Positions 16,182-33,931 of a DNA stretch of 64,000 nucleotides are shown in pieces (the stretch's first letter is position 1; each line of letters starts with the position of its first letter). The position numbers and the translations under genes were made by a program. Location of the stretch: contig CAMCXO010000003.1 of assembly GCA_945883565.1 (NCBI GenBank), forward strand, positions 1-64,000, written 5' to 3'. This DNA comes from Chryseobacterium gleum. Its GTDB lineage: Bacteria > Bacteroidota > Bacteroidia > Flavobacteriales > Schleiferiaceae. The notes below the pieces were generated by a model. That model was not told the DNA's origin. It searched no databases and saw only the letters and a program-made list of their open reading frames with translations.

Positions 16182-17333
16182 TCAATTCAATGGCTCGTAC
16201 GAGAAACTTTGTATAACAATTTCGTGCTCTTGCCCATCAAAAGGAGCGGCTCCGTTAAACAACCAAAAATTAAATCGGGCGTGAGTGGTGTTTCCTGGGC
16301 CCGGAATAATAATTGGCGCAGATGTTTGACCGTTCTCGATCTTGACTCTTGGCGGATTGTTAAGATTAAAATACCAACTTCCTATAACATTGGGTCCGTC
16401 GGCCCTGTCTTTCCAACTGGTCCAAGTAATCAAGGTGTCGGTCCAAACAAAACGATGAGCCGTTACTCCATTCAAATCACCAGGTTGTGTGGGTACCAAA
16501 AAAGTTCTTTCCGGATTATACCCCCCAAACCAAACCGGCTGAACAGAATATTGAAGAATACGTTGTTCAGACACATTTCCCCAGCGCGCCACTTCGACGT
16601 CTACCTCTGAATTGCCATGGGTCAAAAGCGTGTTATTGTCCCAAGTAAATAAACCTACCACGGTATTGGCGGGCAAAGATTCTAAATTGCCTTGTACTAC
16701 AAACGTGTAGGTTCCATAGCCCATAGTATCTGGACTAATAACTTCGGTGCTGTACCATTTACCGTTGCGTTGTGCAATACGCAAGTGCAAAAAACCTTTA
16801 TCGTCTACAAAAACATCGTCTTCATGGTTAGAAAAGTAATTGCCTCCAGGCCCCCAAGTGTAATTCTCGTAAGACTTTATTTCCCAAATTCGACCTGCAA
16901 ATGCCATACGAGAGTTACACAAACACTCAGCCTCCGGCAACACACAAGGTGTACAACTTTCCCAGCATACGGCCGGCAGAATCTCAGGGCCGTTAACGAA
17001 AATGCGACGGTTTATGTAAATCCCACTGGTTTTGGTACACGGGTCAGATGAAATAAAAGTCTCTTGGTGGCTCCAACCATTCAAAGTGAATTTGTATTCG
17101 TGTTCGCCACTTGGCAGGTTTATATCCAGTTCCCAAATACCATCGTTATCGGCGTCGCTCATGGGGTTGCAACTGCCACACCAGTTGTTGAAGGTTCCGT
17201 TCAAATGAACTGTTTGGAAGGCTTGCCCTCCAAATTCGTTCATATCTACCCTAAATCGCACACTGTGGTTTTGAGCTTGTAAACCCAATACTTGGACCAA
17301 ACACAAAAATGCCAGTTGTTTAAAATGCTTCAT
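16182..17333 (-). CDS. GH16 endo-beta-glucanase with N-terminal six-Cys module
   Basis: This 383-residue secreted enzyme has a signal peptide (1-20), a six-cysteine beta-sandwich-like module (about 24-130) and a GH16 catalytic domain (about 140-383). The GH16 nucleophile and acid/base motif ExDxE is complete as NSEVDVEVARWG (Glu243, Asp245, Glu247). The regular ExDxE spacing, without a bulge residue, is also seen in lichenase-type enzymes, so beta-1,3-1,4- or beta-1,3-glucan are the likely substrates. The module has LNGTFNNWCGSCNPMSD, YKFTLNGW, SDPCT and VCWESCTPC, and recurs in the proteins at 30079-33931. The start at 17333 lies inside the previous gene (14-bp overlap). The GH16 part is a tandem paralogue of that upstream gene product. 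Confidence 0.88.
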   Translation of the reverse strand: MKHFKQLAFLCLVQVLGLQAQNHSVRFRVDMNEFGGQAFQTVHLNGTFNNWCGSCNPMSDADNDGIWELDINLPSGEHEYKFTLNGWSHQETFISSDPCTKTSGIYINRRIFVNGPEILPAVCWESCTPCVLPEAECLCNSRMAFAGRIWEIKSYENYTWGPGGNYFSNHEDDVFVDDKGFLHLRIAQRNGKWYSTEVISPDTMGYGTYTFVVQGNLESLPANTVVGLFTWDNNTLLTHGNSEVDVEVARWGNVSEQRILQYSVQPVWFGGYNPERTFLVPTQPGDLNGVTAHRFVWTDTLITWTSWKDRADGPNVIGSWYFNLNNPPRVKIENGQTSAPIIIPGPGNTTHARFNFWLFNGAAPFDGQEHEIVIQSFSYEPLN

Positions 17334-18126
17334 AGTAAAAAGATCGGATGATGACTTCGTGCTCGCGTCCGTCGGAGGGAGGGACTCCACCCAACATCCA
17401 ATAATTCATTCGCACATTGGTATTATTTAAGGGCTTTGGTATCCGTACTGGTCTCGAAGCCTGACCACCTTCATTTTTAACTCGAGCCGGATTGCTAATC
17501 GAGTCAAATTGCCACTGGGCTATTACCCGACCAGAGGTTCCTTCTCCAGCCCAGCTTGTCCAGGTTATTAAGGAATCTGTCCAAACAAATTCATGGGTAC
17601 TCACCCCAATCAAATCACCGTCTTGGGTAGGTGCAGCAAAACTTCGCTCCGGATAATAAGGCCCAAAGTTTACCGGTTGAACTGACATATGCAGAGATTT
17701 ATTGGCCGGATCGAACCACTTCGCGAATTCAATGTCCACCTCGCTATTTGCCTCTTCAAAAAACGATTGGGTATTCCAAGTAAAAAGGCCTAAAACAGTA
17801 TTGTTTGGAATGTTTTCAAAATCGCCTTCAACAACCCAGCGGTATCGGCCAAAACCCACTGTATCGCGACTTACCAGCTCAGTGGAAAACCAAGTACCTT
17901 CATGCTCGGCTATGCGCATGTGCAAATAGCCATTGCCATCTAGAAATATGTCTTCGGTTCGTTCTGAGAAGAAATTTGGTCCAGGACCTTGTTGGGCAGG
18001 GCCAGCTTTAACATCCCAAGTCCAACCCGAAAATCTTACTTCATTACCTACTCTACCAAATTCAGGTGCTTCTTCAAGCTCACATGATAAAACAGCCAGC
18101 CAAAGTATAGGCAAAAATTTCTTCAT
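17320..18126 (-). CDS. GH16 beta-glucanase lipoprotein
   Basis: This 268-residue lipoprotein has a lipobox AVLSC (Cys15) followed by the acidic run ELEEAPE, which resembles the surface-export signal of Bacteroidota lipoproteins, so the enzyme probably acts outside the cell. The GH16 domain fills the rest: FSGWTWDVKAGP, GPGPNFFS and the catalytic NSEVDIEFAKW (Glu129, Asp131, Glu133). It should hydrolyse internal beta-glucan bonds, as its paralogue encoded downstream does. Its ATG overlaps the stop of the GH3 gene by 4 bp, and its end overlaps the next start by 14 bp. It lacks the six-cysteine module of the paralogue. Confidence 0.88.
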   Translation of the reverse strand: MKKFLPILWLAVLSCELEEAPEFGRVGNEVRFSGWTWDVKAGPAQQGPGPNFFSERTEDIFLDGNGYLHMRIAEHEGTWFSTELVSRDTVGFGRYRWVVEGDFENIPNNTVLGLFTWNTQSFFEEANSEVDIEFAKWFDPANKSLHMSVQPVNFGPYYPERSFAAPTQDGDLIGVSTHEFVWTDSLITWTSWAGEGTSGRVIAQWQFDSISNPARVKNEGGQASRPVRIPKPLNNTNVRMNYWMLGGVPPSDGREHEVIIRSFYYEAF

Positions 18127-20378
18127 GGCAATCGGAATAAAGCTGTTTGATTTCCAACTCTCACCCTAAACCAACCCGGTTCGGTGGTACATTTTAGCTC
18201 GGCATCTATAAAGCACAAATCTTCTGGTTTCAGCTCAAACCGCAGCTTCCGGCTTTCACCTGCTTTTAACTTGATGTTCTCAATTCCTCTCAAACGCTTG
18301 GCAGGAGGGGTAATACTGGCCACCGAATCGCTAACGAACAGCAAAACACTTTCGCGGGCTTCTATACTACCTGTATTTTGTATGGTTAACTCCAGGTTGA
18401 TGCCCTTTTCAGCATCCATCAAGGTGTCGCTCAAGACCATTTGGCCATACTCGAAATGGGCATAACTCAAACCATGCCCAAATTCATATTGCGGTTTAAA
18501 AGCATTCATGCTAAAATCCACATCAAGCCTCTCGGTAAACTTGTGGTCGTAAGTCAAAAGGGCATTGGTTTGAGAAGGGTAGGTATATGGCAATTTTCCC
18601 GATGGACTGAATTGGCCTGAAAGCAATTGTGAGAATGCTTTTGTTCCTTGACTTCCTGGTTGATTTGTTAGAATTATGGCGTCGAATAGTGGCTCCAATT
18701 CGGCTATAATTCGCGGCCTATTTTGCACCAAGAGCAAAATGCGCGGTCCTTGATAAGAAGCCGAAATTTGTTTTACCCAACTTAAATCTGCCGATGACAA
18801 ATTCAAGTGATCAATATCGCCAGGTTTTTCTGTTGATGGCCATTCGGACAATACGACCACTAAGGGCACTGATGGACTATTCTGAGGAATTTCGGGCTGT
18901 GGAAAAAACCGGGCATTTGGAAATGCCTCACGCATGGCCTTTTCCAGCGTTATACCGGCATTCAATGTATCCCAATGGGCATGAGTTCCTTGCCAGGTTC
19001 TCGACCATGCACCATTCCAGTAGCGAACGTCGTTCAAAGATTGCCCCGCAACTTGAACCAACCTATCGGCTTTGAGAGGAAGTGTTTGCTTATTGTTTTT
19101 TAACAAGATAAATGATTGTCTGGCTGCCTCCAAGTTGAGTCGGGCAAATGAATCGCTCTGAACCAATGGATATTGGTGGCTGCTTGGTGTGAATGGTGCA
19201 TCGAACAAACCAAGGCTGTATTTCACATGCAAAATGCGGTATACGGCCTCGTTGATTCGCTCCATGCTTACTTCTCCGCTATTGGCCAAATCTATAAGAG
19301 CATCGGTAAATCGATAATCGTTGGGCACCATGGCCATATCTATCCCGGCATTTATCGACAACTTTACAGCTTCGCGCATATTGGCCGCGACCCTATGAAC
19401 AAGCACCAATTTTTCAATATCTTCCCAATCGGTTACTGCCAGCCCTTTAAAACCCAATTCATTTCTCAATAAAACAGTTAAAATATCGTAGTCGGCATGA
19501 CAAGGAATACCATTCAATTCACCTGAATTAATCATAACAGTTAAAGCACCTTGTCGCACAGCAGCCTCAAATGTGGGCAAAAAATACTCACGCAATTGCC
19601 TAGGGTGAATATAAACCGGTGTACGATCGCGACCGGTAAAGGGCAAACTGTAGCCCAAAAAATGCTTCATAGTAGCCGCGACTTTTTCGGGGTGCGACGG
19701 ATTATCGCCTTGATAGCCTTTTATACACGCTTCTCCAAGCGCTTTAGCCAAATGAACATCTTCACCATAGGTTTCGAACATGCGCGACCAAAGCGGCTGA
19801 CGGCCCAAGTCCAATACGGGTGAAAAGTTCCATGGAATTCCGGAAGCTCGGGTTTCGTAAGCTGTCACTGAAGCCAGTTTTTCAACCAATTCAGCATTAA
19901 ATGAAGCCGCTTGGGCTAAAGGCTGAGGCATTAAAGTACCTTCTATTAAATAATTAGCACCATGAATGGCATCTATACCATAAATAATCGGCACCCCGTT
20001 TTTGCCTTTCGATACCGCCAAATTCTGTATTTCCGAAATGATATTTTTCCAATGCTCCAGAGAATATGCATGGCCACCAACATTTAGTATAGAACCCACG
20101 TGGCGCTCTACGATGGCATGATATAACTTCGAACTGTCTAGCTTATGTGGTTCTTCCAAATTGTAAATACTGCCAACCGATACCACATCAAGGTTTAGTT
20201 GCGTCATTTGCCCCACTTTTTCTTCAAGGCTCATTTTGGCCATAAGCACCTCAATTTCTTTGTGGAATGGGCTCTTTTCTGTCCCAGTTCCAACCTTCGA
20301 TGCTTTATTCGAATCACAAGCCCAAAGACTTAAAACAGCAAACGCTCTGGCCAGTAAATGTTTAATGCGCATATTCAA
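18123..20378 (-). CDS. GH3 beta-glucosidase (BglX-like lipoprotein)
   Basis: This 751-residue exo-acting glycosidase is expected to release glucose from the non-reducing end of beta-glucan oligosaccharides. It has an N-terminal lipobox (LWAC, Cys21) without the acidic signal seen in the GH16 lipoprotein, so a periplasmic location is likely. The GH3 barrel spans about 40-370 with KHFLGYS and the nucleophile Asp317 in GLAVTDWEDIEKL. The alpha/beta sandwich follows at about 410-610, and a C-terminal fibronectin-like domain (about 660-751) contains LRGIENIKLKAGE and LKPEDLCFID. The start may be M1 (20378) or M3 (20372); either overlaps the upstream gene. It is in the middle of the glucan operon. 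Confidence 0.92.
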   Translation of the reverse strand: MNMRIKHLLARAFAVLSLWACDSNKASKVGTGTEKSPFHKEIEVLMAKMSLEEKVGQMTQLNLDVVSVGSIYNLEEPHKLDSSKLYHAIVERHVGSILNVGGHAYSLEHWKNIISEIQNLAVSKGKNGVPIIYGIDAIHGANYLIEGTLMPQPLAQAASFNAELVEKLASVTAYETRASGIPWNFSPVLDLGRQPLWSRMFETYGEDVHLAKALGEACIKGYQGDNPSHPEKVAATMKHFLGYSLPFTGRDRTPVYIHPRQLREYFLPTFEAAVRQGALTVMINSGELNGIPCHADYDILTVLLRNELGFKGLAVTDWEDIEKLVLVHRVAANMREAVKLSINAGIDMAMVPNDYRFTDALIDLANSGEVSMERINEAVYRILHVKYSLGLFDAPFTPSSHQYPLVQSDSFARLNLEAARQSFILLKNNKQTLPLKADRLVQVAGQSLNDVRYWNGAWSRTWQGTHAHWDTLNAGITLEKAMREAFPNARFFPQPEIPQNSPSVPLVVVLSEWPSTEKPGDIDHLNLSSADLSWVKQISASYQGPRILLLVQNRPRIIAELEPLFDAIILTNQPGSQGTKAFSQLLSGQFSPSGKLPYTYPSQTNALLTYDHKFTERLDVDFSMNAFKPQYEFGHGLSYAHFEYGQMVLSDTLMDAEKGINLELTIQNTGSIEARESVLLFVSDSVASITPPAKRLRGIENIKLKAGESRKLRFELKPEDLCFIDAELKCTTEPGWFRVRVGNQTALFRLP

Positions 20379-21561
20379 AAAATTGAAGGGTTCCCCAAGT
20401 ATCGGGCATATTGTTTATTGAAACATCTTTTTGATTCCAGTGAAGAAACTCGGATTTGCCTTTATTTGAATAGTTTAATTGGAAATCGAATAGATAAGGC
20501 TTTCCAACCTCTACACCAGGGTGCTTTGCAGCCCTTAGGTCAATCATTACCTTGAGGTGCAAATGCTGGCCACGTTTTTCTATTTTATAAGTCCAAGCCG
20601 ATTTAGAATCTGATGTTTTTTGAAGATTTAATTGCCCAATCAAATCGCTTAACCGCTTTTGTTTTCTATTGGCAGGCGGCTCCGATTGACCGGAAAGCCT
20701 CATCTCCAATGCACTCAATTCCGCTTCAGCCATTTGATTTTGAAAATCAAAATGCAAATAAAGTACCTGATCATAAGCATACATCCAAGCAACGGTGTTG
20801 GCATTGATTTTAAATTCAGGCTCCCAATTTGGCTCAAAATCAGGGGCTGGTGGACTGAGAAGGCTTGGCGCCAAAACTTGATTTAGTTGTTTGCGTGGTA
20901 AACGTACCAAGCGTATATGGTCTATAACCACTTCACCTGCAGCTTCGAATTGAATAATTAACTGTTTGAGGTTACTCGCGTTCGAATTCTGCCATTCAAA
21001 ATCTTTTAAAGGGAACCGGGCATAGCCCCACTCCTGTTCGCTAATGGGCAATTTTTCGAATTTATCTGGCGAAAAGCCTGTCCAAGCCTGCTTGTCCCCA
21101 TAATCTTCTAAAGCCATTGCCAAAGGCAAACCTTTAATTTGACCATTTTTGGGCTTAAGTCGAATTTCGATAGCAGCACTGTCTACAATGCCAAATAAAT
21201 CTTTAGCGGCCCAATTATCCCAACCAATTCCCAATCCTAACCAAATTGGGCAATTGCTTTGAAGTTTATCCCAACTAAGCCATAAGCCAGTTTCGTTTCC
21301 GGGAGCTATGTCTTTAAGGTTTTGAACCTTCAAACAAGGGCTTTGGGTAAACCAAACGGCTGCGTCTAACTGGTTTTCGAAAATAGAAAGTTGAAACACA
21401 TTGCCAATGTGTGGTGGAAGCGCATCTTCCTGCCCATAAAGGCCCTGGGCTTTAAGCAACGGACGCTCTCCTTCAATATCTACTGTGCGCAATACCGGCT
21501 TGTTTTGGGCCGAAGTAATTCCCCAGCAAACAAACCCAATGGCAAATAATGTAGCTCTCAA
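20362..21561 (-). CDS. Secreted protein with two carbohydrate-binding-like domains
   Basis: This 399-residue protein has a signal peptide (MRATLFAIGFVCWGITSAQ) and no lipobox. Residues about 90-225 form a galactose-binding-like jelly-roll ending in VVIDHIRLVRL, the usual last strand of CBM11/CIA30-type folds (compare IYLDYVIF in the next gene product). Residues about 240-399 resemble a CBM9/DOMON-like sandwich (INANTVAWMYAYDQVLYLHFDFQ, LHLKVMIDL, YLFDFQLNY). No catalytic residues are evident. Given its place between the GH3 gene and the lipoprotein gene, a periplasmic or secreted glucan-binding role is plausible. The family assignments are by fold-like pattern only. Confidence 0.65.
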   Translation of the reverse strand: MRATLFAIGFVCWGITSAQNKPVLRTVDIEGERPLLKAQGLYGQEDALPPHIGNVFQLSIFENQLDAAVWFTQSPCLKVQNLKDIAPGNETGLWLSWDKLQSNCPIWLGLGIGWDNWAAKDLFGIVDSAAIEIRLKPKNGQIKGLPLAMALEDYGDKQAWTGFSPDKFEKLPISEQEWGYARFPLKDFEWQNSNASNLKQLIIQFEAAGEVVIDHIRLVRLPRKQLNQVLAPSLLSPPAPDFEPNWEPEFKINANTVAWMYAYDQVLYLHFDFQNQMAEAELSALEMRLSGQSEPPANRKQKRLSDLIGQLNLQKTSDSKSAWTYKIEKRGQHLHLKVMIDLRAAKHPGVEVGKPYLFDFQLNYSNKGKSEFLHWNQKDVSINNMPDTWGTLQFFEYAH

Positions 21562-21563
21562 GT

Positions 21564-22574
21564 TTAAGGTTTAAGCGGTTCGTTTTCAGTAAAAATCACA
21601 TAGTCGAGATAAATCTGCGAATAGCCCGAAGCCGGATTGGCCAAAAACAAAGTAGAAACTCGCCATAGCTTTTGAGGCTCATGTAAGCCATTACCGGCCG
21701 GCGTTGCAGGCTGCCCATTTACCAAACTAACCAGATCACTGTATTTCAATGAAACCAAATTCCAGCCTTCGCTCAAGTCAGTGGTTAGCTCTATGCTGTA
21801 CAAATCTTCATTGTTGGTGTTAAAGTTGCCATCTCCATTTTCATCCTCCCTAAACTGGAACAAAACCAACGCATTGGTAATACTTTTAGGTAAGTAAACC
21901 AAAGCATTAAAATATACTTTGCTCGGGTCGCTGTTTAAGGGAAAGGTAGGGACATCGTAGGCACTGGCAGGGAATTCAATCATGCCAATCAACCAATCCC
22001 AGTTCACTTCTCCCCCCATATCATAATAGAAATCACCTTGTGCAGCTGTGTCGGCATCGTTTATTCTGAAACTCATATTGGCACCACTTTGCGCAAAACG
22101 CAACCATTTAGAATTGATACCAGCTTCAAAATCGGCAATAAGAAAGCCCTCGTTTACTTTTTTTGTTACCACTTCTATGGTATCGCGCCAAACCAATTCG
22201 CCTTCAGGCACACTCACTTCTATGGCCACACGTTCTTCACTAAAAACAGGAAAACGGGTGGTGGATCCATCCCACAGGGTATTGCTCTCATCTAAACTGC
22301 GGCTTCGGCCTTCTATTAACTTTAATCCACCTGTTTCCAGGCCCCTAATCCGAATGCTCCAGTCGGTTACTTTGTTAAATCTAGCCTTTAAATGAAAAGC
22401 TTCGCCCGATGCAAAATCAACAGAATTCTGATTGCCTTCTATTGGCTCCAGCACATTGAAATCACCAAAGAGATCGACTAAATCCGGGCCTTCTTGTTCA
22501 ATTTTATCGGTACATCCTCCTAAAAAAGACATGGCCACAATGGCTAAAAAGCCTGTAAAAAAGTTCGTTTTCAT
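21564..22574 (-). CDS. Lipoprotein with CBM11/CIA30-like domain
   Basis: This 336-residue lipoprotein has its start chosen at 22574 (MKTNFFTGFLAIVAMSFLGG, then the lipobox Cys), giving a clean lipobox GGC. The mature N terminus TDKIEQEG is acidic, which favours surface exposure. An Ig-like region (about 40-140) is followed by a jelly-roll (about 150-336) with LIADFEAGINSKW, LVSLKYSDLVSL and the terminal strand YLDYVIF. The same terminal strand pattern is found in the next gene product, which suggests related binding domains. Its ATG shares one base with the stop codon of the upstream barrel gene (TAATG). Position and topology suggest a SusD/E-like glycan-binding role, but there is no sequence similarity to SusD. 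Confidence 0.65.
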   Translation of the reverse strand: MKTNFFTGFLAIVAMSFLGGCTDKIEQEGPDLVDLFGDFNVLEPIEGNQNSVDFASGEAFHLKARFNKVTDWSIRIRGLETGGLKLIEGRSRSLDESNTLWDGSTTRFPVFSEERVAIEVSVPEGELVWRDTIEVVTKKVNEGFLIADFEAGINSKWLRFAQSGANMSFRINDADTAAQGDFYYDMGGEVNWDWLIGMIEFPASAYDVPTFPLNSDPSKVYFNALVYLPKSITNALVLFQFREDENGDGNFNTNNEDLYSIELTTDLSEGWNLVSLKYSDLVSLVNGQPATPAGNGLHEPQKLWRVSTLFLANPASGYSQIYLDYVIFTENEPLKP

Positions 22575-24280
22575 TAGAGATTCATAATTATGTTTAATTG
22601 CCAATTTCCCCAGTTGTATTCAGGTAGTGCAGATTTGGAATCGCTCCAATTAAAGCGTTGATAAAACAACTGAGCTTCAAATCGATCGGCAAGCTCGTAT
22701 TGCAAACCGGCTCCCATCATTTGTTCGTTGCGATCGGCTTCGAAAGGAACAAAATCTACCACCTCTGAATAATCGTTTCTCAAGGCATATAAATCGCTGC
22801 CAACGGCAGAAAACAGCCTCCACTCGGCCAGCAAACTAAGCCTTGGGTAAAAACCCCATTCTGCTCCTACCTGCACCATTTGGTTGTTTAACGAAACTTC
22901 CGGTCCAACACTGGCCTTATCCCTGCTTGTAGACTCCATCAGTAAAAATGGAGTAATCACTACACTTTGCTTCCAACCAAACATTTTATCGAGCAGCCAT
23001 TCTGCTTCCCATTCTACTTGCGTAAAGCCTCGTTTTAAGTCGGTACCTTGTCCGGCTATATCACTGAGCCAGCCCAATTTTGCTTTTGTATTGAAGCTTT
23101 TATTCGCATTTTCCCAATGCACACTGCCATTTACCCCACGTCGGTTTGGAGTAGCCAAACCATAAGGGGTTGCATTCCCATATAGTGGGTCGTATGGCAT
23201 TAGGCCCGCTTGAAGTTGTGTATTGTATAAAGAAGCGTCGCGAAGCAAATCGAAAGTACTCATCGGTCTAAGCACTTGCTCGTTGGTATATCTTCTAATG
23301 GCCAATGGATATGCCACCGCTCTAATGCGTTTGGTTTGGGCCCCACTGCTTCTAAAATTAGCACCTACTTCGCGGTAATTAAGCTGAACACTTAATCTTT
23401 TTGGTAGATTTCGCCATGATAATTTTGCGTCTAAGAACCCATCTGTCAATCTAGGCGCTTCAGAGTCTCCGGTCCATTCTAAAACCGATCGGCCACCTTC
23501 TATTGTTGCACCTAAACGGTACTGCTTAAGTGTTTGCTCCCAATGCAGTTGAATGCTGTTTACAGGATTGTTTAAGTTAACTGTATTTCGGGCAGTTTGA
23601 GCCACATCAAAAAGTTGAGCCCGATTGTATTTTATGCCTAAGCCTTTGGGCAACAATATTTCGGCCGACCCTCCACTAAAAAGTCTGTCAGGCGTTTGAT
23701 TAAAATCGCTGGCCGCAATTCTAGTGGTAAACAATTGAAAATTGACCTCTTTTAAGTACTTTTTCACATTAAATCCAAAATCGAAAGCCACACCTTGTTG
23801 ACGCCAGGTTTCGTTTGGCGATTGAAACAAATCGTATCGAATAAAATCGAGACCAGTGGTTGAAATAGACGAGCGGCTTCTCAATATCCACTCCTCTTCG
23901 TTTTGAAAAGTATAAGGGGTTAAACGGTAGTCGAGGTCGCCTAATTGAAAGCGTATGGCGTTGCCGATTATGCCTCGTATCCACAACTGCCTTAGATCGA
24001 ATGTTACTCCACTTCCCCAAAATCCTCCGTAATCGTTACGAACCCTCAACATGGCATGCACTTCTACCTTGTTGTTTGGTTTGATGTGCAAACCCAAATC
24101 AGCCAATGCATGGCCGTTTTGCAGTTTTCCAGGTGTTAAAGTATCGTTTTCGGTACTGAATGCATCAGACCAAACTACACCCCTGGCATATGAAGAAAGC
24201 CAAATTTTTCGTCCATCTTGGGCCATTACCAGTTGTGCAAATAACAATGCGATGGATGTAAAGGCGATTTTCGTTTTCAT
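22574..24280 (-). CDS. Outer-membrane beta-barrel protein, glucan operon (barrel B)
   Basis: This 568-residue exported protein has a signal peptide (MKTKIAFTSIALLFAQLVMAQ) and then almost continuous amphipathic strands separated by Asn/Gly/Asp turns: VEVHAMLRVRNDY, FRLGATIEGG-like segments, LSVQLNYREVGANFR, LSLLAEWRLFSAVGSDLY and FEAQLFYQRFNW. There is no TonB box, plug domain or SusC signature. I cannot assign a family. It directly follows barrel A (0-bp gap) and precedes the binding lipoprotein, which suggests a complex in which the barrels provide the pore and the lipoprotein the surface receptor. The N terminus GRKIWLSSYARGVVWSDAFST is not a known motif. Confidence 0.6.
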   Translation of the reverse strand: MKTKIAFTSIALLFAQLVMAQDGRKIWLSSYARGVVWSDAFSTENDTLTPGKLQNGHALADLGLHIKPNNKVEVHAMLRVRNDYGGFWGSGVTFDLRQLWIRGIIGNAIRFQLGDLDYRLTPYTFQNEEEWILRSRSSISTTGLDFIRYDLFQSPNETWRQQGVAFDFGFNVKKYLKEVNFQLFTTRIAASDFNQTPDRLFSGGSAEILLPKGLGIKYNRAQLFDVAQTARNTVNLNNPVNSIQLHWEQTLKQYRLGATIEGGRSVLEWTGDSEAPRLTDGFLDAKLSWRNLPKRLSVQLNYREVGANFRSSGAQTKRIRAVAYPLAIRRYTNEQVLRPMSTFDLLRDASLYNTQLQAGLMPYDPLYGNATPYGLATPNRRGVNGSVHWENANKSFNTKAKLGWLSDIAGQGTDLKRGFTQVEWEAEWLLDKMFGWKQSVVITPFLLMESTSRDKASVGPEVSLNNQMVQVGAEWGFYPRLSLLAEWRLFSAVGSDLYALRNDYSEVVDFVPFEADRNEQMMGAGLQYELADRFEAQLFYQRFNWSDSKSALPEYNWGNWQLNIIMNL

Positions 24281-26233
24281 TTAGAAAAATACTTTTAGTT
24301 CGATCAGGGTTTCCTGACCTTGAAAATGGTCGAGTGCAAAACTTTTATCCTGGAAATAGAACCACCGGTGCCTAAAGAATATGCCAGCATTTGGCCCCAA
24401 CGATTGATCAAAGCCTAGTCCGAGGCCCCAGCCTTCCTGATCCCTTGGACGGTAGCTTTCAACATCGATGTCAGTGGCATAATTACCTAAACTCCTTTCA
24501 TAACCTGCATAGGCATTGGCATATAAGCCAGAACGCACTTTCCAAAAGGCTTCTAATTCATTGCTGTACAATCTTAGATATGGACTTGGGTTTACTACAG
24601 GGACCATTGACCAGTGCTTTTGAACGCTTTGGTACCTACCCAAGAAAAACACATACAAAGGGTGCTTTATGCTGTTGGTTTTGTACTTTACATGCGCTTC
24701 GAGAGTAGAAAAGTGCTTGCGGTGAATGGGTTGCCCAGCTTGATCGTCGTTTAGCTGTACGGTTTCGAAAACATCGCGGTAAATAACCGATTGACGGCCA
24801 TAAGGCCCAATATTCTGCGGAAAATCCCAACGCCAAAACCGCGAACGGGTTAGTTGATTAACCGCGTGTGAAAAGGTGATTTGATTTGAAATGGCTTCAA
24901 TTTCGGCTGCTGCGCCTAAGCCTAAACTTAGCTTAACCCGTCCAATGGCAAATTGAGAATTTAAATTAAGCCCTTGACGGTTGTTTGTAAGTAATCCCAA
25001 TGGCAATACAGAACTGGCAAAAGGCCGTAATAAAGCCCCACTCCCAATATTGGTATTGCCTTCGGTGGGTGCTGGTATTTCGCTTACCGCCACATTCCAA
25101 TACAAGGCATTGTTGTTAACCACATTTGGGCTAACTCTAAAAGCCTGAATTTCGATTGGGATGAGACTGATTTTTTTGGATGTTGTAAATTTTAGGTTGA
25201 TGGCCTCGCCCCAATCAAGTGTATAGGTCGGGGTGGTGTAATTGCCAATTCCCCCTTCGAGATGAGCCGTAAACAAAGGATGAGACCAATGGCCTTCTAA
25301 GGTATGTACCTGAAAGCCTACCGAGTTACGGGCGTTGGTGTCTATGTACGTAAGGCCATTTAAGCTGTTAAATGCCAACCAATTACTACCAAACGTCTTT
25401 TTAATTTTCCCACCAAAAGTGTTGTTTGGAATGCTTAAAAATCCGCCATTTAGCTCGGTTTTACCATACATCATACTAACGTTCCAACCCCCTGGTAAAG
25501 CCAAAGCTTCACCAATAAAACCTTGAACCGCCCTTTCGCCAAAACGTGTATCCTGAAATACCTCGCCCGATTCGTATAAAGCATTGTAGCGCTCGCCTAT
25601 TTCTACACCGATGGGATCCCAGGGTGCCCTTTCGTTTAAGGTCCACCGGTAGTAGCCTTTAAAAGATGCCAAGGTTAAATCAGAAATGCTGTACCAGTGT
25701 ATTCCACCCAAACGCAAGTTAAAGGTTCCGAAAGTAGAAGCATAGCTTGCAAAAATGTTCAAACCCAAATTAAGGCCTAAAGAAGATCCCAATCGGGTTC
25801 CACCTAGAGGATCGAAAACGGTTGGGCGGTTATTCTCGCTTACTTGACCACTGTAAGCCGGTTGAACAACTCCGTTTAAGAACTGAAAGGCAAACAAATC
25901 GAAGCCCCAAGAAAATTGGTCGTTTGGTCTGCCTGATATATTTAGCATTAAATTGGGCAATTGGCTATCGTCTCCTATAAAAATGCTTCTCGGATTTACG
26001 ACATTGTTTCCATCTGCCGTTAAGGCATAAGGTAAATCTTGTTGGGTATAGGTACCGAAAAATCTATAAAAACCGCTTAAATTCCATTTATAGGTTTTAG
26101 GTAGCTCGGTTTTCGGAAAAATACCCGAACTCAAATTAAACAGACTGGAATCGCTGGCAGTTTGAGCTTTAACCCCAAGGCCCAAAAACAACAATGAAGC
26201 TGTAAACAGCAAAAGTTTATTAACTGAATACAT
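24281..26233 (-). CDS. Outer-membrane beta-barrel protein, glucan operon (barrel A)
   Basis: This 650-residue exported protein has a signal peptide (MYSVNKLLLFTASLLFLGLG, cut near VKAQ). From about residue 45 it is a long run of alternating strands (YKWNLSGFYRFFGTY, FNLRLGGIHWYSI, LGLNLGLNIFASYA) ending in ELKVFF, with the C-terminal Phe typical of BAM substrates. It lacks a TonB plug and any catalytic motif. It shows no clear similarity to the adjacent barrel B beyond general barrel composition. The start overlaps the symporter stop by 14 bp. I infer an outer-membrane channel or structural barrel that replaces SusC in this locus; a porin, secretion or adhesion role cannot be excluded. Confidence 0.6.
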   Translation of the reverse strand: MYSVNKLLLFTASLLFLGLGVKAQTASDSSLFNLSSGIFPKTELPKTYKWNLSGFYRFFGTYTQQDLPYALTADGNNVVNPRSIFIGDDSQLPNLMLNISGRPNDQFSWGFDLFAFQFLNGVVQPAYSGQVSENNRPTVFDPLGGTRLGSSLGLNLGLNIFASYASTFGTFNLRLGGIHWYSISDLTLASFKGYYRWTLNERAPWDPIGVEIGERYNALYESGEVFQDTRFGERAVQGFIGEALALPGGWNVSMMYGKTELNGGFLSIPNNTFGGKIKKTFGSNWLAFNSLNGLTYIDTNARNSVGFQVHTLEGHWSHPLFTAHLEGGIGNYTTPTYTLDWGEAINLKFTTSKKISLIPIEIQAFRVSPNVVNNNALYWNVAVSEIPAPTEGNTNIGSGALLRPFASSVLPLGLLTNNRQGLNLNSQFAIGRVKLSLGLGAAAEIEAISNQITFSHAVNQLTRSRFWRWDFPQNIGPYGRQSVIYRDVFETVQLNDDQAGQPIHRKHFSTLEAHVKYKTNSIKHPLYVFFLGRYQSVQKHWSMVPVVNPSPYLRLYSNELEAFWKVRSGLYANAYAGYERSLGNYATDIDVESYRPRDQEGWGLGLGFDQSLGPNAGIFFRHRWFYFQDKSFALDHFQGQETLIELKVFF

Positions 26234-27845
26234 ACCAAACGGCCATTATAAGCACAATTAAACCCGCAGTAAGCCAAGTGTTTGTGGTAGAACTGCCTTT
26301 ATCAACACCTGTTTTAGAATACATAACGGCCAATGCTTTTGGCTCTAGGGCAGAGGGTTTTAACGAACTGGCCGCCAAAAGAACCAAGGCGCATACCACA
26401 AACAAGAAAAAAGCAAAATGCAAGAAATTGATGTTGGCGTAGGTTAACCAAATACCGTCCAAACCGTCCTTATTTAGCTCCAAAAGCAACCGAAGCAAAC
26501 CAAGAGCGGCTCCGGTTAATAAGGTCATTTTGGCCCCAAAAGCATTGATTTGTTTATAAAACAGGCCAAGCAAAAACACAGCCGCTATGGGTGGGGAGAT
26601 ATAAGCCTGAATGCTTTGTAGCTTTTGAAACAAGCCTCCCTCTATTAATTTCAGCATGGGTATCCAAAGCAAGCCTAAACCTATGAGCACAACGGTTGCC
26701 ATCTGCCCCACAAAAACAAGCTTTTTTTCTGGGGTCTCCGGAAAATACTTGCGGTATATATCCATGGTAAACAGGGTGCTACAAGAATTAAAAACCGAAG
26801 AAAGGGAACTCATTAATGCAGCCAACAAACCCGCCACCACCAAACCTCTTAAACCGGCAGGAAGCAATTGCATGGTTAAAGCTGGCAAAGCAGCGTCGTA
26901 TTCCACTTGACCTTGGGCATTTATAGGCAATTGCAACAAACCTTTTTGAGCCAACGCAAAAGCTATTACCCCGGGAATAACAAAAATGAAAATGGGAAGG
27001 AGCTTTAAATAGCCTGCAAAAATGGTGCTCTGCCTGGCCACTTTAACATTTTTAGCCGATAGAACCCGTTGAACTATAAACTGATCGGTACACCAATACC
27101 AAACACCTAAAATGGGCGCTCCAAATAAAATGCCTGTCCACGGAAAGTCTGGATCGCTCATTGGTCTCCACAAACTCAAAGCATCCTCGCCCGCTATGGC
27201 CTTTACTTCGCCCCATCCGCCAGCCGCATCTAATCCAAATACAGTTAAAGCTATTGCGCCAGCCAGAAAAATAAACATCTGAATCATATCGGTGTAAACC
27301 ACTGCCCTTAAGCCTCCAAATAGAGTATAGATGCCGGTTGCTACGACCACCACAATAGCGCCGGTCCAAAAATCGATACCCAGTAAAGAAGTAAAAATGA
27401 TGCCACCTGCAGCAATGGTTACCGAGATTTTGGTGAGGACATATGAAACAATCGATACCCATGACAAATACCCACGCGACCAAGAATCGTATCGCCTTTC
27501 TAAAAATTCGGGCATGGTAAATACTCCACTTTTCAAATAAAATGGAACAAAAAGCCATCCTAAAAGAATTAAAATGAGAGCCGCTAATATTTCGAATTGT
27601 GCGGCCGGAAAGTCACCTGAAGCACCGGCTCCAGCTAAACCAACCAAATGTTCGCTGCCAATATTTGAAGCAAAAAGCGATGCGCCTATCGCAAACCATC
27701 CTAAACTTCGTCCTCCTAAAAAGTATTCACTACTTGAGGCTTCTTCTCCTTTTTTTCTTTGGCGCGAAGAAAACATAGCCACACCAAAAACCAAGGCAAA
27801 ATAGCCTAAAACAATGCTGTAGTCTATGAGGTGCAGTTTGTTCAT
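26220..27845 (-). CDS. SSS-family sodium/sugar symporter
   Basis: This 541-residue inner-membrane symporter of the sodium:solute symporter family is related to SGLT. About 14 hydrophobic helices are visible. SEYFLGGRSLGWFAIGASLFASNIGSEHLVGLAGAG is the region around the first SSS helices, and MSSLSSVFNSCSTLFTMD is the conserved SSS segment before the late helices with the serines used for sodium binding in vSGLT. It would import glucose or a short oligosaccharide released in the periplasm. It overlaps the GH-A glycosidase gene by 4 bp and barrel A by 14 bp, so its expression is tied to the glucan operon. The exact sugar cannot be read from sequence. Confidence 0.9.
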   Translation of the reverse strand: MNKLHLIDYSIVLGYFALVFGVAMFSSRQRKKGEEASSSEYFLGGRSLGWFAIGASLFASNIGSEHLVGLAGAGASGDFPAAQFEILAALILILLGWLFVPFYLKSGVFTMPEFLERRYDSWSRGYLSWVSIVSYVLTKISVTIAAGGIIFTSLLGIDFWTGAIVVVVATGIYTLFGGLRAVVYTDMIQMFIFLAGAIALTVFGLDAAGGWGEVKAIAGEDALSLWRPMSDPDFPWTGILFGAPILGVWYWCTDQFIVQRVLSAKNVKVARQSTIFAGYLKLLPIFIFVIPGVIAFALAQKGLLQLPINAQGQVEYDAALPALTMQLLPAGLRGLVVAGLLAALMSSLSSVFNSCSTLFTMDIYRKYFPETPEKKLVFVGQMATVVLIGLGLLWIPMLKLIEGGLFQKLQSIQAYISPPIAAVFLLGLFYKQINAFGAKMTLLTGAALGLLRLLLELNKDGLDGIWLTYANINFLHFAFFLFVVCALVLLAASSLKPSALEPKALAVMYSKTGVDKGSSTTNTWLTAGLIVLIMAVWYVFS

Positions 27846-29206: not shown

Positions 29207-29209
29207 AGT

Positions 29210-29983
29210 TTAGAGTTCAAAGGAAAAACCTTTCTGCTTAAGTTCAAAATAACGTTCAGGATCAAAGGCGTACAATCGGGCCGGTCTGTGCGACACATTT
29301 GTTTGCATTTCATCTAAATCTTTGAGCAACTTCATGCTCAAAATTTTCTTTCTAAAATTGCCCTTATCGAATTTTTCATTCAATACGGCTTCATAAAGCT
29401 TCTGCAGGTCGTTTAGAGTAAACTTATTAGGTAGGAGTTCAAAGCCCAATGGCTCCCTTCTTACCCTAACTTTCAACTTTTCAATGGCCTTTTCCAGTAT
29501 TTCATCGTGGTCAAAAGCCAGTGCTTCAATTTGATCCAATTTATGCCATTTGGTCTGATCGGCCCAAGATGATGGCTGAGTATCGTAGTTTTCAATTCGA
29601 ATCAATGCGATGTAAGCTACGGTTACCACTCGCCCCAATGGATGTCTGTCTACACGCCCAAATGATTTTATTTGTTGCATAAACACCTCTCTAATACCGG
29701 TCAAACTTTCGAGAACCCTTTGAGCGGCATTATCTAGGTTTTCATTGGGGTAAACCAAATCTCCAGGAATGGCCCATCGGTGTTTATATGGGGCTACACC
29801 CCTTTCTATAAGAAGCACTTTGATATCGTTGCCGTCAAAACCAAATACCACACAATCTACCGACAATCCAAAATGGAAAAACTCATTTAAAGGAATTCCA
29901 TAATTGGGTTCATCGTTGTGGCTCTTTTGCAAACCAGCTTCTAATGTAGCACCATTGGCCAACTCATCAAAGTCTCTTCTCAT
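29210..29983 (-). CDS. Nudix-related transcriptional regulator (NrtR/AraR type)
   Basis: This 257-residue predicted DNA-binding regulator has an N-terminal Nudix domain (about 38-170) and a C-terminal winged helix (about 180-235: PNKFTLNDLQKLYEAVL, NFRKKIL). The Nudix box is degenerate: after Gly74 the expected REUxEExGU reads RVLESLTGI (89-97), so the three metal-binding glutamates are Val, Ser and Leu. It should therefore sense a ligand rather than hydrolyse it, as in AraR-type regulators. As first gene of the operon it probably controls the locus, including itself. The intergenic region upstream (29984-30078) has a weak promoter and a TGCACT-N6-AGTGCA palindrome that could be its operator. 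Confidence 0.88.
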   Translation of the reverse strand: MRRDFDELANGATLEAGLQKSHNDEPNYGIPLNEFFHFGLSVDCVVFGFDGNDIKVLLIERGVAPYKHRWAIPGDLVYPNENLDNAAQRVLESLTGIREVFMQQIKSFGRVDRHPLGRVVTVAYIALIRIENYDTQPSSWADQTKWHKLDQIEALAFDHDEILEKAIEKLKVRVRREPLGFELLPNKFTLNDLQKLYEAVLNEKFDKGNFRKKILSMKLLKDLDEMQTNVSHRPARLYAFDPERYFELKQKGFSFEL

Positions 29984-30002: not shown

Positions 30003-30030
30003 TTAAGGTAAGAGAAGGCCGCCTGATCAA
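30003..30030 (-). promoter_or_regulatory. Weak candidate promoter of the glucan operon
   Basis: On the minus strand TTG (30030-30028), 17 bp, then TACCTTAA (30010-30003) matches TTG-N17-TAnnTT with two mismatches in the -7 element. It lies 20 bp before the regulator ATG but is intertwined with the terminator hairpin of the upstream gene. Confidence 0.3.
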
Positions 30031-30045
30031 CCAAACGGCCCTTCT
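30013..30045 (-). terminator. Imperfect hairpin after the 452-residue T9SS gene
   Basis: AGAAGGCCG (30013-30021) pairs with CGGCCCTTCT (30036-30045) with one bulged base. The following minus-strand sequence is only moderately T-rich, so termination may be partial, leaving read-through into the glucan operon possible. Confidence 0.4.
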
Positions 30046-30053
30046 ACCCCCCA

Positions 30054-30071
30054 TGCACTCAGCAAAGTGCA
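30054..30071. promoter_or_regulatory. Palindrome TGCACT-N6-AGTGCA, possible operator
   Basis: A perfect 6-bp dyad lies 71 bp upstream of the Nudix-type regulator gene. It could be an operator for that regulator, or part of the 3' end of the preceding gene's transcript. Confidence 0.25.
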
Positions 30072-30078
30072 ATGCTTA

Positions 30079-31437
30079 TTAATTGTGCTTAATCCAATTG
30101 AAGCGAAACACTAGTTCTTTGTTTTTCACTTCTCCCGTATAAACACCAACAGGAAGATGCTCCACGTTGATTTGAGCTTCTTTGCCATTTACTACAGTTT
30201 CAAGGACTTGCTGACCCATAGTGTTGAAGAATTTTACCTCAGCGTTCTGCAAATGGCCTATTGCTGAAAGATCAAGATTTATAATGTGTTTAGCCGGGTT
30301 TGGATACACTTTCACAGAGAGTGCGTTGAAATCAACAGCAGAGAAAATATCGCAAACATCGCAGCTTGCCCAACATACAGGCAGTAAACTTTGGTCGCCA
30401 GATACGATGTGCAAACGATTCACAAAATTGCCATCGGTAAATGTGCATGGATCTCCAGAAGTAAGCTGTTCGTCTACAGTCCATCCATCTAAAGTGAATT
30501 TATACTGTATAGTATCGCCGATTGGAAGTGTAACACTCAATTCGAAAATGCTGTCGTTGTTGGCATCGGTCATAACAGCACAGCTACCACACCAATTGTT
30601 AAAGGTGCCATTCAAATTCACCATATTATAGGATGGTCCGGTATATTCAGATAAATCGATTTGAAAGAGAATATTAGCCGAAGTAGGCCCAGAACCGCAT
30701 GAAGCACAGCTGGACCAACAAACCGAAGGCAAAGTAGTGTCTCCGTTTAAAATGGCAATTCGGTTGGTAAAACCGGAACTCGTAAACGTACAAGGATCTC
30801 CGGGTAGAAGCGTTTCATCATCATTGAAATTGTCTACCACGAATTTGTACAAAATGGTGTCATAAGCGGCGGGAACAGAAACAAGTCCCTCGTATATGCC
30901 GTCACCATCACCATCGAACAACTCGTTGCAAATTCCACAGAAGCTATTGAAATTCCCAGCAACAAAAACCTGATTATAAGTAGGGACGTAGTCGCTCATG
31001 TCGACTTTAAAAATCACGTTCTTGGATATTGGGCTTCCGGCACAAGCCGAACAACTTCCCCAACAAACAATGGGAAGTGTAGCATTTCCAGTTATGTTCA
31101 ATATACGATTGGTAAAAGTGCCTACCGTTTGGGTACAGGCAGACCCGGGAACTAAAAGCTCTTGACCAGACCAATTGTCGTGGGCAAATTTGTATTCAAT
31201 AAAAGTTGCAGTGATCGAATCAACAGTAACCTCCCAAATGTCATCGCCATCTGGGTCCGACATCGGGTGACAAGATGCGCCGCACCAGTTATTGAACGTA
31301 CCATTAACTTCGGGAGTAGTAAAATTGGCGGTATAATCGCTCATATCGAGCCTAAAAGTGATGCTGTAGTATTGCGCTTGTGCAAATGCAGGCATCAACA
31401 GCACAAGCATAAGCCACTGTTTCAAAGTCGTTTTCAT
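30079..31437 (-). CDS. T9SS-secreted protein with three six-Cys modules
   Basis: This 452-residue secreted protein has a signal peptide (1-22), three tandem copies of the six-cysteine module found in the GH16 enzyme (about 23-132, 140-243, 252-353) and a type A T9SS sorting domain (about 365-452; SVKVYPNPAKHIINLDL, then LPVGVYTGEV). Each module shows FxxxMSDY-like first strand, FNxWCGxC or close variant, a DxDxD-type acidic stretch, E/QYKF, GDPCT, FxNR and VCWxSCxxC. There is no catalytic domain. I infer that it is displayed on or released from the surface and binds the same glucan as the GH16 module. It lies between the operon regulator gene and the longer module protein gene. Confidence 0.8.
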   Translation of the reverse strand: MKTTLKQWLMLVLLMPAFAQAQYYSITFRLDMSDYTANFTTPEVNGTFNNWCGASCHPMSDPDGDDIWEVTVDSITATFIEYKFAHDNWSGQELLVPGSACTQTVGTFTNRILNITGNATLPIVCWGSCSACAGSPISKNVIFKVDMSDYVPTYNQVFVAGNFNSFCGICNELFDGDGDGIYEGLVSVPAAYDTILYKFVVDNFNDDETLLPGDPCTFTSSGFTNRIAILNGDTTLPSVCWSSCASCGSGPTSANILFQIDLSEYTGPSYNMVNLNGTFNNWCGSCAVMTDANNDSIFELSVTLPIGDTIQYKFTLDGWTVDEQLTSGDPCTFTDGNFVNRLHIVSGDQSLLPVCWASCDVCDIFSAVDFNALSVKVYPNPAKHIINLDLSAIGHLQNAEVKFFNTMGQQVLETVVNGKEAQINVEHLPVGVYTGEVKNKELVFRFNWIKHN

Positions 31438-31451
31438 TGGGTAGTGATTTT

Positions 31452-31487
31452 TAAGAAAACCTGCCGGAAGCTTTCACTGCCGGCAGG
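31452..31487 (-). terminator. Terminator of the 809-residue module protein gene
   Basis: CCTGCCGG (31460-31467) and CCGGCAGG (31480-31487) form a perfect 8-bp stem. Reading the minus strand it is followed by TTTTCTT, so it should stop transcription 15 bp after the stop codon at 31502. Confidence 0.75.
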
Positions 31488-31501
31488 CCACTCAATTAAT
31501 A

Positions 31502-33931
31502 TTAGTTTTTAACCAGTTTGAAGTTTGATACTTCACCAGCCTTATTAGAAGCTCTTAGAACGTAAACACCTGCAGGATAGGTGCTAAGATCCAATTGGGC
31601 TTCTGCGCTGTTCATTTCATCCTGAACCAGAACACGGCCGTTCAAGTCTAGAAGCTCTATTTTCACACCAGCCTCAGCCACAACAAAGAGTTGGTTTTGA
31701 ACCGGATTTGGATAAACCTCAAGACCTGATAACGCACCTTCAGAAACCATATCGTTCTTATTGCCACCGGCGCCAAGATTGCGATTTCTTCCATTCGAGT
31801 AAGCAGAATTACGGGCTCCTGAGCCGGGATTGTAACGTGTGCGAACATTAAAACGGTACTGCTTATCAACGGTTAAGTTGTTTACATGGAAGAAGGTATC
31901 GGTAATTCCGGTAAACAATTGAACCAAAGCATTATCTGTTTCATTACGAACACGAACTTGATAGCTCAATACGCCAGGCTCATTTACACTGTTCCAAATT
32001 GGACGGAAACCATTAGGACTGCTGTTTATAGCGCTTATTAGATTTGGAACATAGGCAGTATCTAAGCTTAGAATGTTGGCCATTCCGATAGAATCTGCGG
32101 AACAGTTGTAACGATCGCTCACATAAATACTGTAAACTCCAGATTCAAGATCTGAGAAGGTAGCATTTCTGCGGTTTGTAACAGCGACGGTGTCTCCATT
32201 GCCTACCATCATAATATTGTACAAAGTGCGTCCTCCTTGGGTGTTAAACACAGTTACTTTTCCCAATCTGCCCATTTCAGGTGCTTGAAGAACATTGTAA
32301 GAATAGGTTACATCGGTGGCACAAACAATGCTAAAGTTAGCTGCGCAAGTTGTAGATGCAGGACCGTTGTTGGTAGTCACTTTGTACTCATAGTCACCAG
32401 GCTCCAGATTTTGAATAAGTTTAGAAGTACCGGTTACATTAGCGCCACTCCAAGTTGGCTCACCCACTTTGCGCCATTCTAAACGATAGCTGCTGCTGCC
32501 AGGAATGGCATTCCATGAGAAGTCAGATTGATAGTTACCTGATATCATAGCACTTGCACCTAAATTATAGCAAGTGGCAGTCGAATTAAAGCAGGAAGTG
32601 GGTAGGGAAGTATCGCTAGAAACGTACACTACCCGGTCGGAAATACTTTCCCATACCACACTTCCGCCTGCATATCTGCGAAACTTATATCTGGTTTGAC
32701 CATCTGGAATATTCAATTGCAAACTGTAAACACTTCCTCCCATATGGTTCATAATGTATCCTGAACCACCATTCCAACCATTAAAATTACCAACTACCTC
32801 TACAGAATCAAAAACGCATTCTGTCTGCATATCAACTGTAAAAGTGACATCGTAATTGTTGGTTGAGCAATTTGCACAGCTTCCCCAACACACAGGAGAA
32901 AGCACAGTGTCTTGAGTTGGATATAACACCCTATTGGTAAATCCACCAGTGGTCATAGTACAAAAGTCGCCTTGAGTTAATTGTTCATCGGCGGCCCAGC
33001 CGTCTACAGTGTATTTGTACTCAATGAAACCAGAAGTTGAAACATTTACGGTAATTTCATAGATGCTGTCGTTATTGGCATCTGTCATAACTGCACAGCT
33101 TCCACACCAGCCATTAAAACTTCCATTTAAATTCACATTGGTCCAAGTTCCAGGATAGTCGCGCATGTTAACTTGGAAAGTAACGTTAGCCGTTGAAGGC
33201 CCGCTTCCACATGGTGTGCATTGTGCCCAACACACCTGTGCCAGGTTGGTATCGCCGTTTAAGACAGTGAAGCGGTTGGTAAAACCGAAAGAAGTTTTGG
33301 TGCAAGGCTCGCCACCCGAGAAGTTCTCTTGAGCATTCCAGCCATCTGCAGTGAACTTATACTCAATTGAATCGGCTGTAATAGGCAAAGTAACTTGCCA
33401 AATGTCGTTACCCATATCAGTCATAGGGTTGCAGCCTCCACACCATCCGTTGAAACTACCGTTAACAAAAATACCAGAGTAAGAACCAGTAAAGCCTGAA
33501 ACGTCTACAGTAAAGGTGACATCCTTAGGCTGTGGTGCAGAAGCACAGTTGCTGCAAGAATTCCAGCATACAACATCTAGGTTGGTATTGCCGGTAATTG
33601 CTAAAAAGCGATTGGTGAAGCCAAAGTTGGTTTGGGTGCATGGCATCCCTTGAACCAAGGCTTCCTGATCGTTCCAGCCATCAACTGTAAACTTGTATTC
33701 GATGTTGCCTGCTGCCAATGGGAGTGTTACTTCCCAAATTCCATCGTTATTGGCATCGGTCATCGGATTACATCCGCCGCACCAACCATTAAAACTGCCA
33801 TTCACAAACACACCACCAAATGGACCACCGGCGTAACCGGCCATATCCACCTTAAAGGTCACGTTGTACGTTTGCGCATAGGCCATGAGTCCGGCAAATA
33901 GACCCATAACCGTGAATAAAATTCTCTTCAT
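31502..33931 (-). CDS. T9SS-secreted protein with four module repeats and FN3-like domains
   Basis: This 809-residue secreted protein has a signal peptide (1-20) and three full six-cysteine modules (about 21-131, 136-241, 248-355). A fourth, diverged module (about 360-455) keeps VVGNFNGW but has lost most cysteines. A fibronectin-like region (about 460-560 and 640-730; SYRLEWRKVGEPTW, SYQVRVRN) and a T9SS sorting domain (about 735-809; LEVYPNPVQNQLFVV, STYPAGVYVL) follow. No enzyme domain is present. It has a strong promoter (33959-33988) and a strong terminator, so it is its own transcription unit, presumably producing an abundant surface or extracellular glucan-binding scaffold. Confidence 0.82.
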   Translation of the reverse strand: MKRILFTVMGLFAGLMAYAQTYNVTFKVDMAGYAGGPFGGVFVNGSFNGWCGGCNPMTDANNDGIWEVTLPLAAGNIEYKFTVDGWNDQEALVQGMPCTQTNFGFTNRFLAITGNTNLDVVCWNSCSNCASAPQPKDVTFTVDVSGFTGSYSGIFVNGSFNGWCGGCNPMTDMGNDIWQVTLPITADSIEYKFTADGWNAQENFSGGEPCTKTSFGFTNRFTVLNGDTNLAQVCWAQCTPCGSGPSTANVTFQVNMRDYPGTWTNVNLNGSFNGWCGSCAVMTDANNDSIYEITVNVSTSGFIEYKYTVDGWAADEQLTQGDFCTMTTGGFTNRVLYPTQDTVLSPVCWGSCANCSTNNYDVTFTVDMQTECVFDSVEVVGNFNGWNGGSGYIMNHMGGSVYSLQLNIPDGQTRYKFRRYAGGSVVWESISDRVVYVSSDTSLPTSCFNSTATCYNLGASAMISGNYQSDFSWNAIPGSSSYRLEWRKVGEPTWSGANVTGTSKLIQNLEPGDYEYKVTTNNGPASTTCAANFSIVCATDVTYSYNVLQAPEMGRLGKVTVFNTQGGRTLYNIMMVGNGDTVAVTNRRNATFSDLESGVYSIYVSDRYNCSADSIGMANILSLDTAYVPNLISAINSSPNGFRPIWNSVNEPGVLSYQVRVRNETDNALVQLFTGITDTFFHVNNLTVDKQYRFNVRTRYNPGSGARNSAYSNGRNRNLGAGGNKNDMVSEGALSGLEVYPNPVQNQLFVVAEAGVKIELLDLNGRVLVQDEMNSAEAQLDLSTYPAGVYVLRASNKAGEVSNFKLVKN

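Follow-up and report, generated by a model that had tools for sequence, protein, structure and literature searches.

In genome annotation, carbohydrate-binding module family 48 (CBM48) is taken as a sign of alpha-glucan use, and a bloom metagenomics paper states that it is a known alpha-glucan binder (PMC6794258); in the glycogen-binding domain (GBD) of AMPK beta1, W100, K126, W133, and N150 contact the sugar by stacking or hydrogen bonding (PMC9788615). In Bacteroides uniformis, the beta(1,3)-glucan locus has an enzyme set from glycoside hydrolase (GH) families GH16_3, GH158, and GH3, and the catalytic residues of BuGH158 are reported to be essential (PMC7157763). Here we analyze a 64,000-nucleotide stretch of contig CAMCXO010000003.1 (the window, meaning this whole stretch), in which a six-cysteine module recurs in a glucanase with a predicted GH16 fold and in two proteins of 452 and 809 residues that are predicted to be exported by the type IX secretion system (T9SS). 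The module genes and the accompanying cluster occupy positions 16182-33931, all on the minus strand. The explanation we favor, at a probability of about 0.62, is that the module is a disulfide-stabilized, T9SS-exported Bacteroidota branch of CBM48 predicted to capture beta-1,3-glucan.

The module is 108 to 111 residues long and occurs once in the GH16-like protein, three times in the 452-residue protein, and four times in the 809-residue protein, all three of which are predicted to be exported. Seven of the eight copies carry six cysteines and share the motif order FNxWCGxC, a D-rich stretch, YKF, DGW, CTxT, F/YxNR, and VCWxSCxxC; they have 24 invariant columns (the six cysteines and 18 others), and identity to the first copy is 45 to 64%. 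The fourth copy of the 809-residue protein is degenerate: counterparts of C4 and C6 are present, and those of C1, C2, C3, and C5 are lacking. The repeat is far beyond chance, since a profile search of the genome gave E values of ∼1e-50 per copy, and 27 module matches on six contigs indicate that it is not restricted to the three window genes.

The module is a member of the CBM48/AMPK GBD superfamily, built like starch- and glycogen-binding domains that occur in organisms as distant as bacteria and humans. The Pfam profiles CBM_48 and AMPK1_CBM (PF02922 and PF16561) match above their curated cut-offs in all three module proteins, with 30.4 and 31.2 bits in the glucanase (P0001), 46.9 and 36.4 bits in P0002, and 90.7 and 76 bits in P0003; among 73 homologous copies, AMPK1_CBM matches 66 and CBM_48 matches 49. 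The nearest solved sequence is the AMPK beta GBD, recovered at an E value of 6e-4 with a seven-copy profile and more strongly, at 4e-7, with a 73-row profile. An AF2 model of the glucanase module (mean pLDDT, 94.9) has the AMPK beta1 GBD 1z0n as its best Foldseek match (E value, 2.1e-6; 32% identity), and VIA gave Z scores of 10.5 to 11.2 at 2.1 to 2.7 Å to AMPK GBD and CBM20 domains, exceeding the tool's "common arrangement" range; model, Foldseek, and VIA agree on the E-set starch-binding beta-sandwich fold. The profile alignment equates AMPK beta1 W100, K126, W133, and N150 with module residues W70, K100, W106, and N127, which are kept in 71, 72, 67, and 72 of the 73 copies, respectively; L146 of AMPK is not kept, at a place where the loop alignment is of low confidence. 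We regard carbohydrate binding in general as a very likely function of the module.

An earlier note on this DNA, made from the sequence alone, had described eight copies, a count that stands with one of them degenerate and with the minus strand, which it left unstated, now added; its guess of an E-set/CBM48-like fold was right. It also placed the module, with its cysteine pattern, in no characterized family, which the Pfam and fold searches reject for the core, and its proposed profile search against CBM families and structures led to CBM48/AMPK1_CBM, with AMPK beta as the nearest solved domain. Neither the six-cysteine branch nor its disulfide arrangement nor its association with beta-glucan loci was described in the literature searched, and the open-access papers yielded no laminarin binder with a CBM48 fold; what is new is therefore this branch, its inferred disulfide pattern, and its context, the CBM48 family being already known. 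Membership in CBM56 (PF22184) was considered and rejected: the window copies reach 14.1 bits against a cut-off of 27, and just one distant, degenerate copy, the third in a GH16 fusion (L109:7512-9665, minus strand), passes it, with 29.2 bits. No CBM56 structure came up when that region was searched against the PDB. The score hints that the six-cysteine branch and CBM56, which binds beta-1,3-glucan, may be related.

The cysteines, numbered as in the glucanase, are lost among the 73 copies in a patterned way. C71 and C74 (C1/C2) are lost jointly 25 times and C118 and C146 (C3/C5) twice, in both cases never singly; for C142 and C149 (C4/C6), there are three joint losses and two single ones, the latter at truncated domain ends. 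The simplest reading of this co-loss is that disulfides pair C1-C2, C3-C5, and C4-C6. The C1-C2 pair spans W-C-G-x-C, immediately after the first sugar-stacking tryptophan. Two CxxC-like motifs, together with long tandem module arrays in very large T9SS proteins that have no glycoside hydrolase nearby, could be taken to mean that the module has a role other than sugar binding, as a spacer, as a repeat unit of a surface layer, or as a redox or metal site of the CxxC type. We consider this improbable, the least likely of the alternatives: W70, K100, W106, and N127 are conserved in 67 to 72 of the 73 copies, unlike in a spacer, and because both cysteines of the first CxxC disappear together while the other four are kept, a self-contained C1-C2 disulfide is preferred over a four-cysteine metal site. 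Zinc or redox chemistry at the CxxC motifs is likewise disfavored by the co-loss.

The link to beta-glucan comes from gene neighborhoods. A first phylum survey at 1e-8 recovered mostly generic, cysteine-free AMPK1_CBM domains; at an E value of 1e-14, 95 of the 395 genomes in the class, and 55 of the 197 genera, have the module. Carriers adjoin a Pfam-verified GH16 or GH3 or a GH158 relative in several distinct locus types, and among 41 high-scoring carrier loci, 20 have a GH16 or GH158 gene within 5 kb, versus 0.55 expected from gene density; many of the genomes are related, which makes the P value of this comparison unusable. Six relatives (G045, G064, G415, G460, G519, and G698; the last three called by coordinates) have the module and GH16 (PF00722) in one open frame. 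Among the outcomes that the earlier note said would refute its proposed function was a lack of modules beside GH genes elsewhere, which did not occur, and its proposal of a beta-glucan-linked carbohydrate-binding module, as a putative binder, is well supported by these neighborhoods and fusions. Five loci (L066, L071, L074, L075, and L077) encode proteins of 295 to 318 residues (276 where cut) with one C-terminal six-cysteine module and an unknown N-terminal half, and no GH16 or GH158 was found within 5 kb of them.

Context was then scored per locus at a distance of 5 kb in 27 genomes, with carriers classed as having at least one WCGxC copy or none. Of the WCGxC carriers, 22 lay near GH16/GH158 and none near GH13; of the carriers without any WCGxC copy, 12 lay near GH13 and none near GH16/GH158; and 24 carriers had neither nearby. 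In a hold-out of 19 other genomes, with the prediction fixed beforehand and the surroundings of all GH16, GH158, and GH13 hits scanned, 13 WCGxC carriers were near GH16/GH158 and 0 near GH13, and carriers without WCGxC were near GH16/GH158 once and near GH13 16 times (13 without three GH13 proteins that have their own ordinary CBM48); the hold-out genomes are related to the first set and were picked for carrying the module. The GH13-linked copies are lower scoring, lack C1-C2, have a longer FQxxAGFxxDW loop, and lie inside or beside GH13 alpha-amylases. Both branches occur in single genomes (G000, G045, G395, G396, G398, and G415 and, in the hold-out, G440, G611, G664, G698, and G711). One GH13-linked example is a 2,525-residue T9SS protein with an alpha-amylase domain, nine modules, and SusF-like profile matches (G000:C18:44922-52496, equal to L103:4923-12497).

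Because the contact residues are of the starch-binder type, the chief rival is that the module keeps the ancestral CBM48 specificity for alpha-glucan and sits in laminarin loci since the cell harvests several storage glycans. The GH13-linked branch, too, keeps residues of the W100/K126/W133/N150 type, and the solved neighbors of known ligand by Foldseek, VIA, and profile alignment all bind alpha-glucans. We nevertheless judge this rival unlikely: none of the 22 and none of the 13 placed WCGxC carriers lies within 5 kb of GH13, although GH13 is common in the genomes; the module is fused directly to GH16 catalytic domains; and the loop of the first tryptophan differs (FNxWCGxC versus FQxxAGFxxDW).

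Several observations weigh against capture of beta-1,3-glucan by the six-cysteine branch or limit what the split can carry, beginning with the ligands of the solved neighbors and the type of the contact residues just described. Roughly one-half of the strong carriers lack a GH16 or GH158 neighbor, in some cases owing to short contigs. The single hold-out exception is a G664 carrier without WCGxC that lies 4.5 kb from GH16 and adjoins a six-cysteine carrier, and a near-exception (G158:C22) lies at 6 kb. In a tree of 194 copies from which the C1-C2 columns were removed, a supported 91-row set, with the window copies shown, comprises 54 beta-context, 37 unplaced, and 0 alpha-context rows, but the alpha/beta label changes only 5 times on the tree, versus 35.6 times for shuffled labels, in essence one deep division. 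Independent supported contrasts number two, and C1-C2 differs in neither; among the 64 copies that beta-context proteins contain, C1-C2 is missing from 21. The split is therefore best regarded as a clade property seen in many genomes but with few origins, and the C1-C2 disulfide as a marker with no demonstrated causal role in a change of ligand. The window glucanase may be periplasmic because it lacks a T9SS tail. Finally, some CBM48s bind no glycan tested (PMC8040265). We hold the odds to be about even for the broader proposal that a whole CBM48 branch switched its ligand from alpha-1,4- to beta-1,3-glucan, marked by the added WCGxC disulfide beside the first sugar-stacking tryptophan, giving a single cell two sister sets of T9SS-exported tandem modules, for starch and for laminarin.

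The cluster that separates the module genes of the window (Table 1) is, as judged from its enzyme set, a beta-1,3-glucan locus. The GH158 protein was assigned by sequence family (9oro, E value of 2e-97; 6pal, E value of 3e-71) and by its residues at the BuGH158 catalytic positions, and the set of GH16, GH158, and GH3 is complete, with GH16 by fold only. The catalytic domain of the glucanase had no PF00722 match at an E value of 1 and no PDB sequence match, and PF00722 was found nowhere in the whole genome at 1e-5. The best Foldseek hits of the domain model are GH16 enzymes, mostly glucanases (best, 5nbo; E value, 4.6e-9), and an ExDxE motif (E-I/V-D-I/V-E) is present in most homologues, as EVDVE at 262 in the glucanase. 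The full-length AF2 model of P0001 was usable for the GH16 domain and poor for the module part, which had few alignment rows. The GH16 label that the earlier note gave this enzyme is thus supported only by the predicted GH16 jelly-roll fold and the motif and cannot be reached from sequence matches, and its claim that the 452- and 809-residue proteins are T9SS cargo is upheld by Por_Secre_tail matches above the Pfam cut-off; a Pfam scan found no such tail in the glucanase.

The breadth of GH16 leaves room for the rival that the module binds another beta-glycan (mixed-linkage or cell-wall glucan, or xylan) and that the laminarin enzymes are merely neighbors. Mixed-linkage glucanases (5nbo and 1gbg) are among the Foldseek neighbors of the window domain, and the CBM48s of CE1 esterases have left starch (PMC8040265), but GH158 and GH3 indicate beta-1,3-glucan, and we think this rival doubtful, somewhat more so than retained alpha-glucan binding.

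Table 1. Module proteins and gene cluster of the window
Feature	Coordinates	Strand	Remarks
Glucanase, GH16-fold, secreted, N-terminal six-cysteine module	16182..17333	-	Signal peptide, no T9SS tail
Glucanase GH16-fold domain	16185..16919	-	Motif NSEVDVE, E262-V-D-V-E266
Glucanase module copy	16938..17267	-	Residues 42-151 of 402-residue frame; C71, C74, C118, C142, C146, C149
Paralogous GH16-fold lipoprotein, 268 residues, no module	17320..18126	-	EVDIE at 129; domain 49% identical
GH3 beta-glucosidase	18123..20378	-	Closest solved, BoGH3B, E value 1e-157
399-residue exported protein	20362..21561	-	Weak CBM30-like match, below cut-off
346-residue lipoprotein, no family match	21564..22604	-	Conserved in syntenic loci
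568-residue predicted outer-membrane barrel	22574..24280	-	Weak OMP_b-brl match
650-residue exported protein without a family match, probably an outer-membrane barrel	24281..26233	-	Conserved in syntenic locus L058
SSF sodium:solute symporter	26220..27845	-	Pfam
GH158 endo-beta-1,3-glucanase, 454 residues	27842..29206	-	N136, E137, E220 at BuGH158 catalytic positions
NUDIX + NrtR/AraR winged-helix regulator	29210..29983	-	Pfam
452-residue protein, T9SS-exported (predicted), three six-cysteine modules	30079..31437	-	
452-residue protein, Por_Secre_tail (T9SS sorting domain)	30115..30309	-	
452-residue protein, module 3	30349..30678	-	
452-residue protein, module 2	30691..31023	-	
452-residue protein, module 1	31036..31368	-	
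809-residue protein, T9SS-exported (predicted), three six-cysteine modules plus one degenerate module	31502..33931	-	Fn3-like domains, sorting tail
809-residue protein, Por_Secre_tail (T9SS sorting domain)	31526..31717	-	
809-residue protein, degenerate module 4	32564..32854	-	Lacks C1, C2, C3, C5
809-residue protein, module 3	32861..33190	-	
809-residue protein, module 2	33203..33526	-	
809-residue protein, module 1	33539..33868	-	

The glucanase frame of 402 residues opens with a GTG at 17390; the likely start is the ATG at 17333, which gives 383 residues. If that ATG is used, the upstream gene, that of the GH16-fold lipoprotein, ends (17320) ∼14 bp inside the glucanase gene, and the two overlapping paralogues are probably translationally coupled. 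Their domain family (16185-16919 and 17323-18051), for which neither Pfam nor the PDB gives a sequence match, occurs in 18 of 395 phylum genomes, and its ExDxE motif is lost in 3 of 20 aligned homologues.

No gene of the cluster matches SusC or SusD in Pfam, and relatives in L060 and L067 have large exported proteins at the SusC/SusD position. The interval 20362-26233 encodes two exported proteins of large size, at least one of which is likely an outer-membrane barrel, and two exported proteins of unknown family; these, with the adjoining SSF symporter, are conserved in L058, and the cluster may possibly use an uptake route independent of SusC/D. A syntenic locus is present in Cryomorphaceae metagenome-assembled genomes (MAGs), where the module-glucanase fusion is 65% identical. 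In the MAG of L058, the GH3 gene is split into two frames (L058:5788-8053) by a frameshift or an assembly error. Beyond the module genes, and divergent from them, lies a gene for a 686-residue lipoprotein-like protein with DUF4842 and DUF4114 (34288-36348).

Were the module to capture beta-1,3-glucan, as we propose, the T9SS would export the proteins with three and four tandem copies and fix them to the cell surface, and their multivalent binding could hold laminarin there. GH158 and GH16-fold enzymes would cut the glucan chain, the copy on the glucanase keeping that enzyme at its substrate, and GH3 would free glucose for import by the SSF symporter. The three predicted disulfides would rigidify the module, with C1-C2 pinning the loop that bears the first sugar-stacking tryptophan. 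If the six-cysteine branch does bind laminarin, then in many Flavobacteriales the storage glycan assigned through CBM48 annotation is the wrong one. An alpha/beta switch on one fold is directly testable because the sister branches coexist in genomes and share contact residues.

Compared with described systems, the module is like the AMPK beta GBD (CBM48; PF16561; PDB 1z0n) in fold (Foldseek E value, 2e-6; VIA Z score, 10.5), in its FNNW/YKF/DG-W order, and in the four contact equivalents, but it has six cysteines and a C-terminal VCWxSCxxC extension and lacks L146, and it is bacterial, exported in tandem, and encoded in a beta-glucan locus, whereas the AMPK domain is a glycogen sensor. With the GH13-linked branch, the X25_BaPul_like/CBM48 repeats of Bacteroidota alpha-amylase proteins, it shares superfamily, mostly kept C3 to C6, contact residues, T9SS export, and genomes; those repeats differ in having no WCGxC, the longer FQxxAGFxxDW loop, NGNxW where the six-cysteine branch has DGW, and a GH13 context. 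CBM56 shares with it the one L109 degenerate copy above the cut-off and differs in that the window copies fall below. The CBM48s of CE1 feruloyl esterases resemble it as CBM48s on enzymes of beta-glycan loci that are reported not to bind starch, but they are single domains packed on the esterase, with no six-cysteine pattern reported and no tested glycan bound (PMC8040265). In organization, the tandem proteins, which have no catalytic domain, would be the T9SS equivalents of Bacteroides surface glycan-binding proteins (SGBPs): SGBP-B of the B. uniformis beta(1,3)-glucan locus is likewise a catalysis-free surface glycan-binding protein encoded with GH16, GH158, and GH3, but it is a sequence-divergent cell-surface protein beside SusC/SusD (PMC7157763), whereas the window has T9SS tandem CBM48 proteins in a cluster without SusC/SusD.

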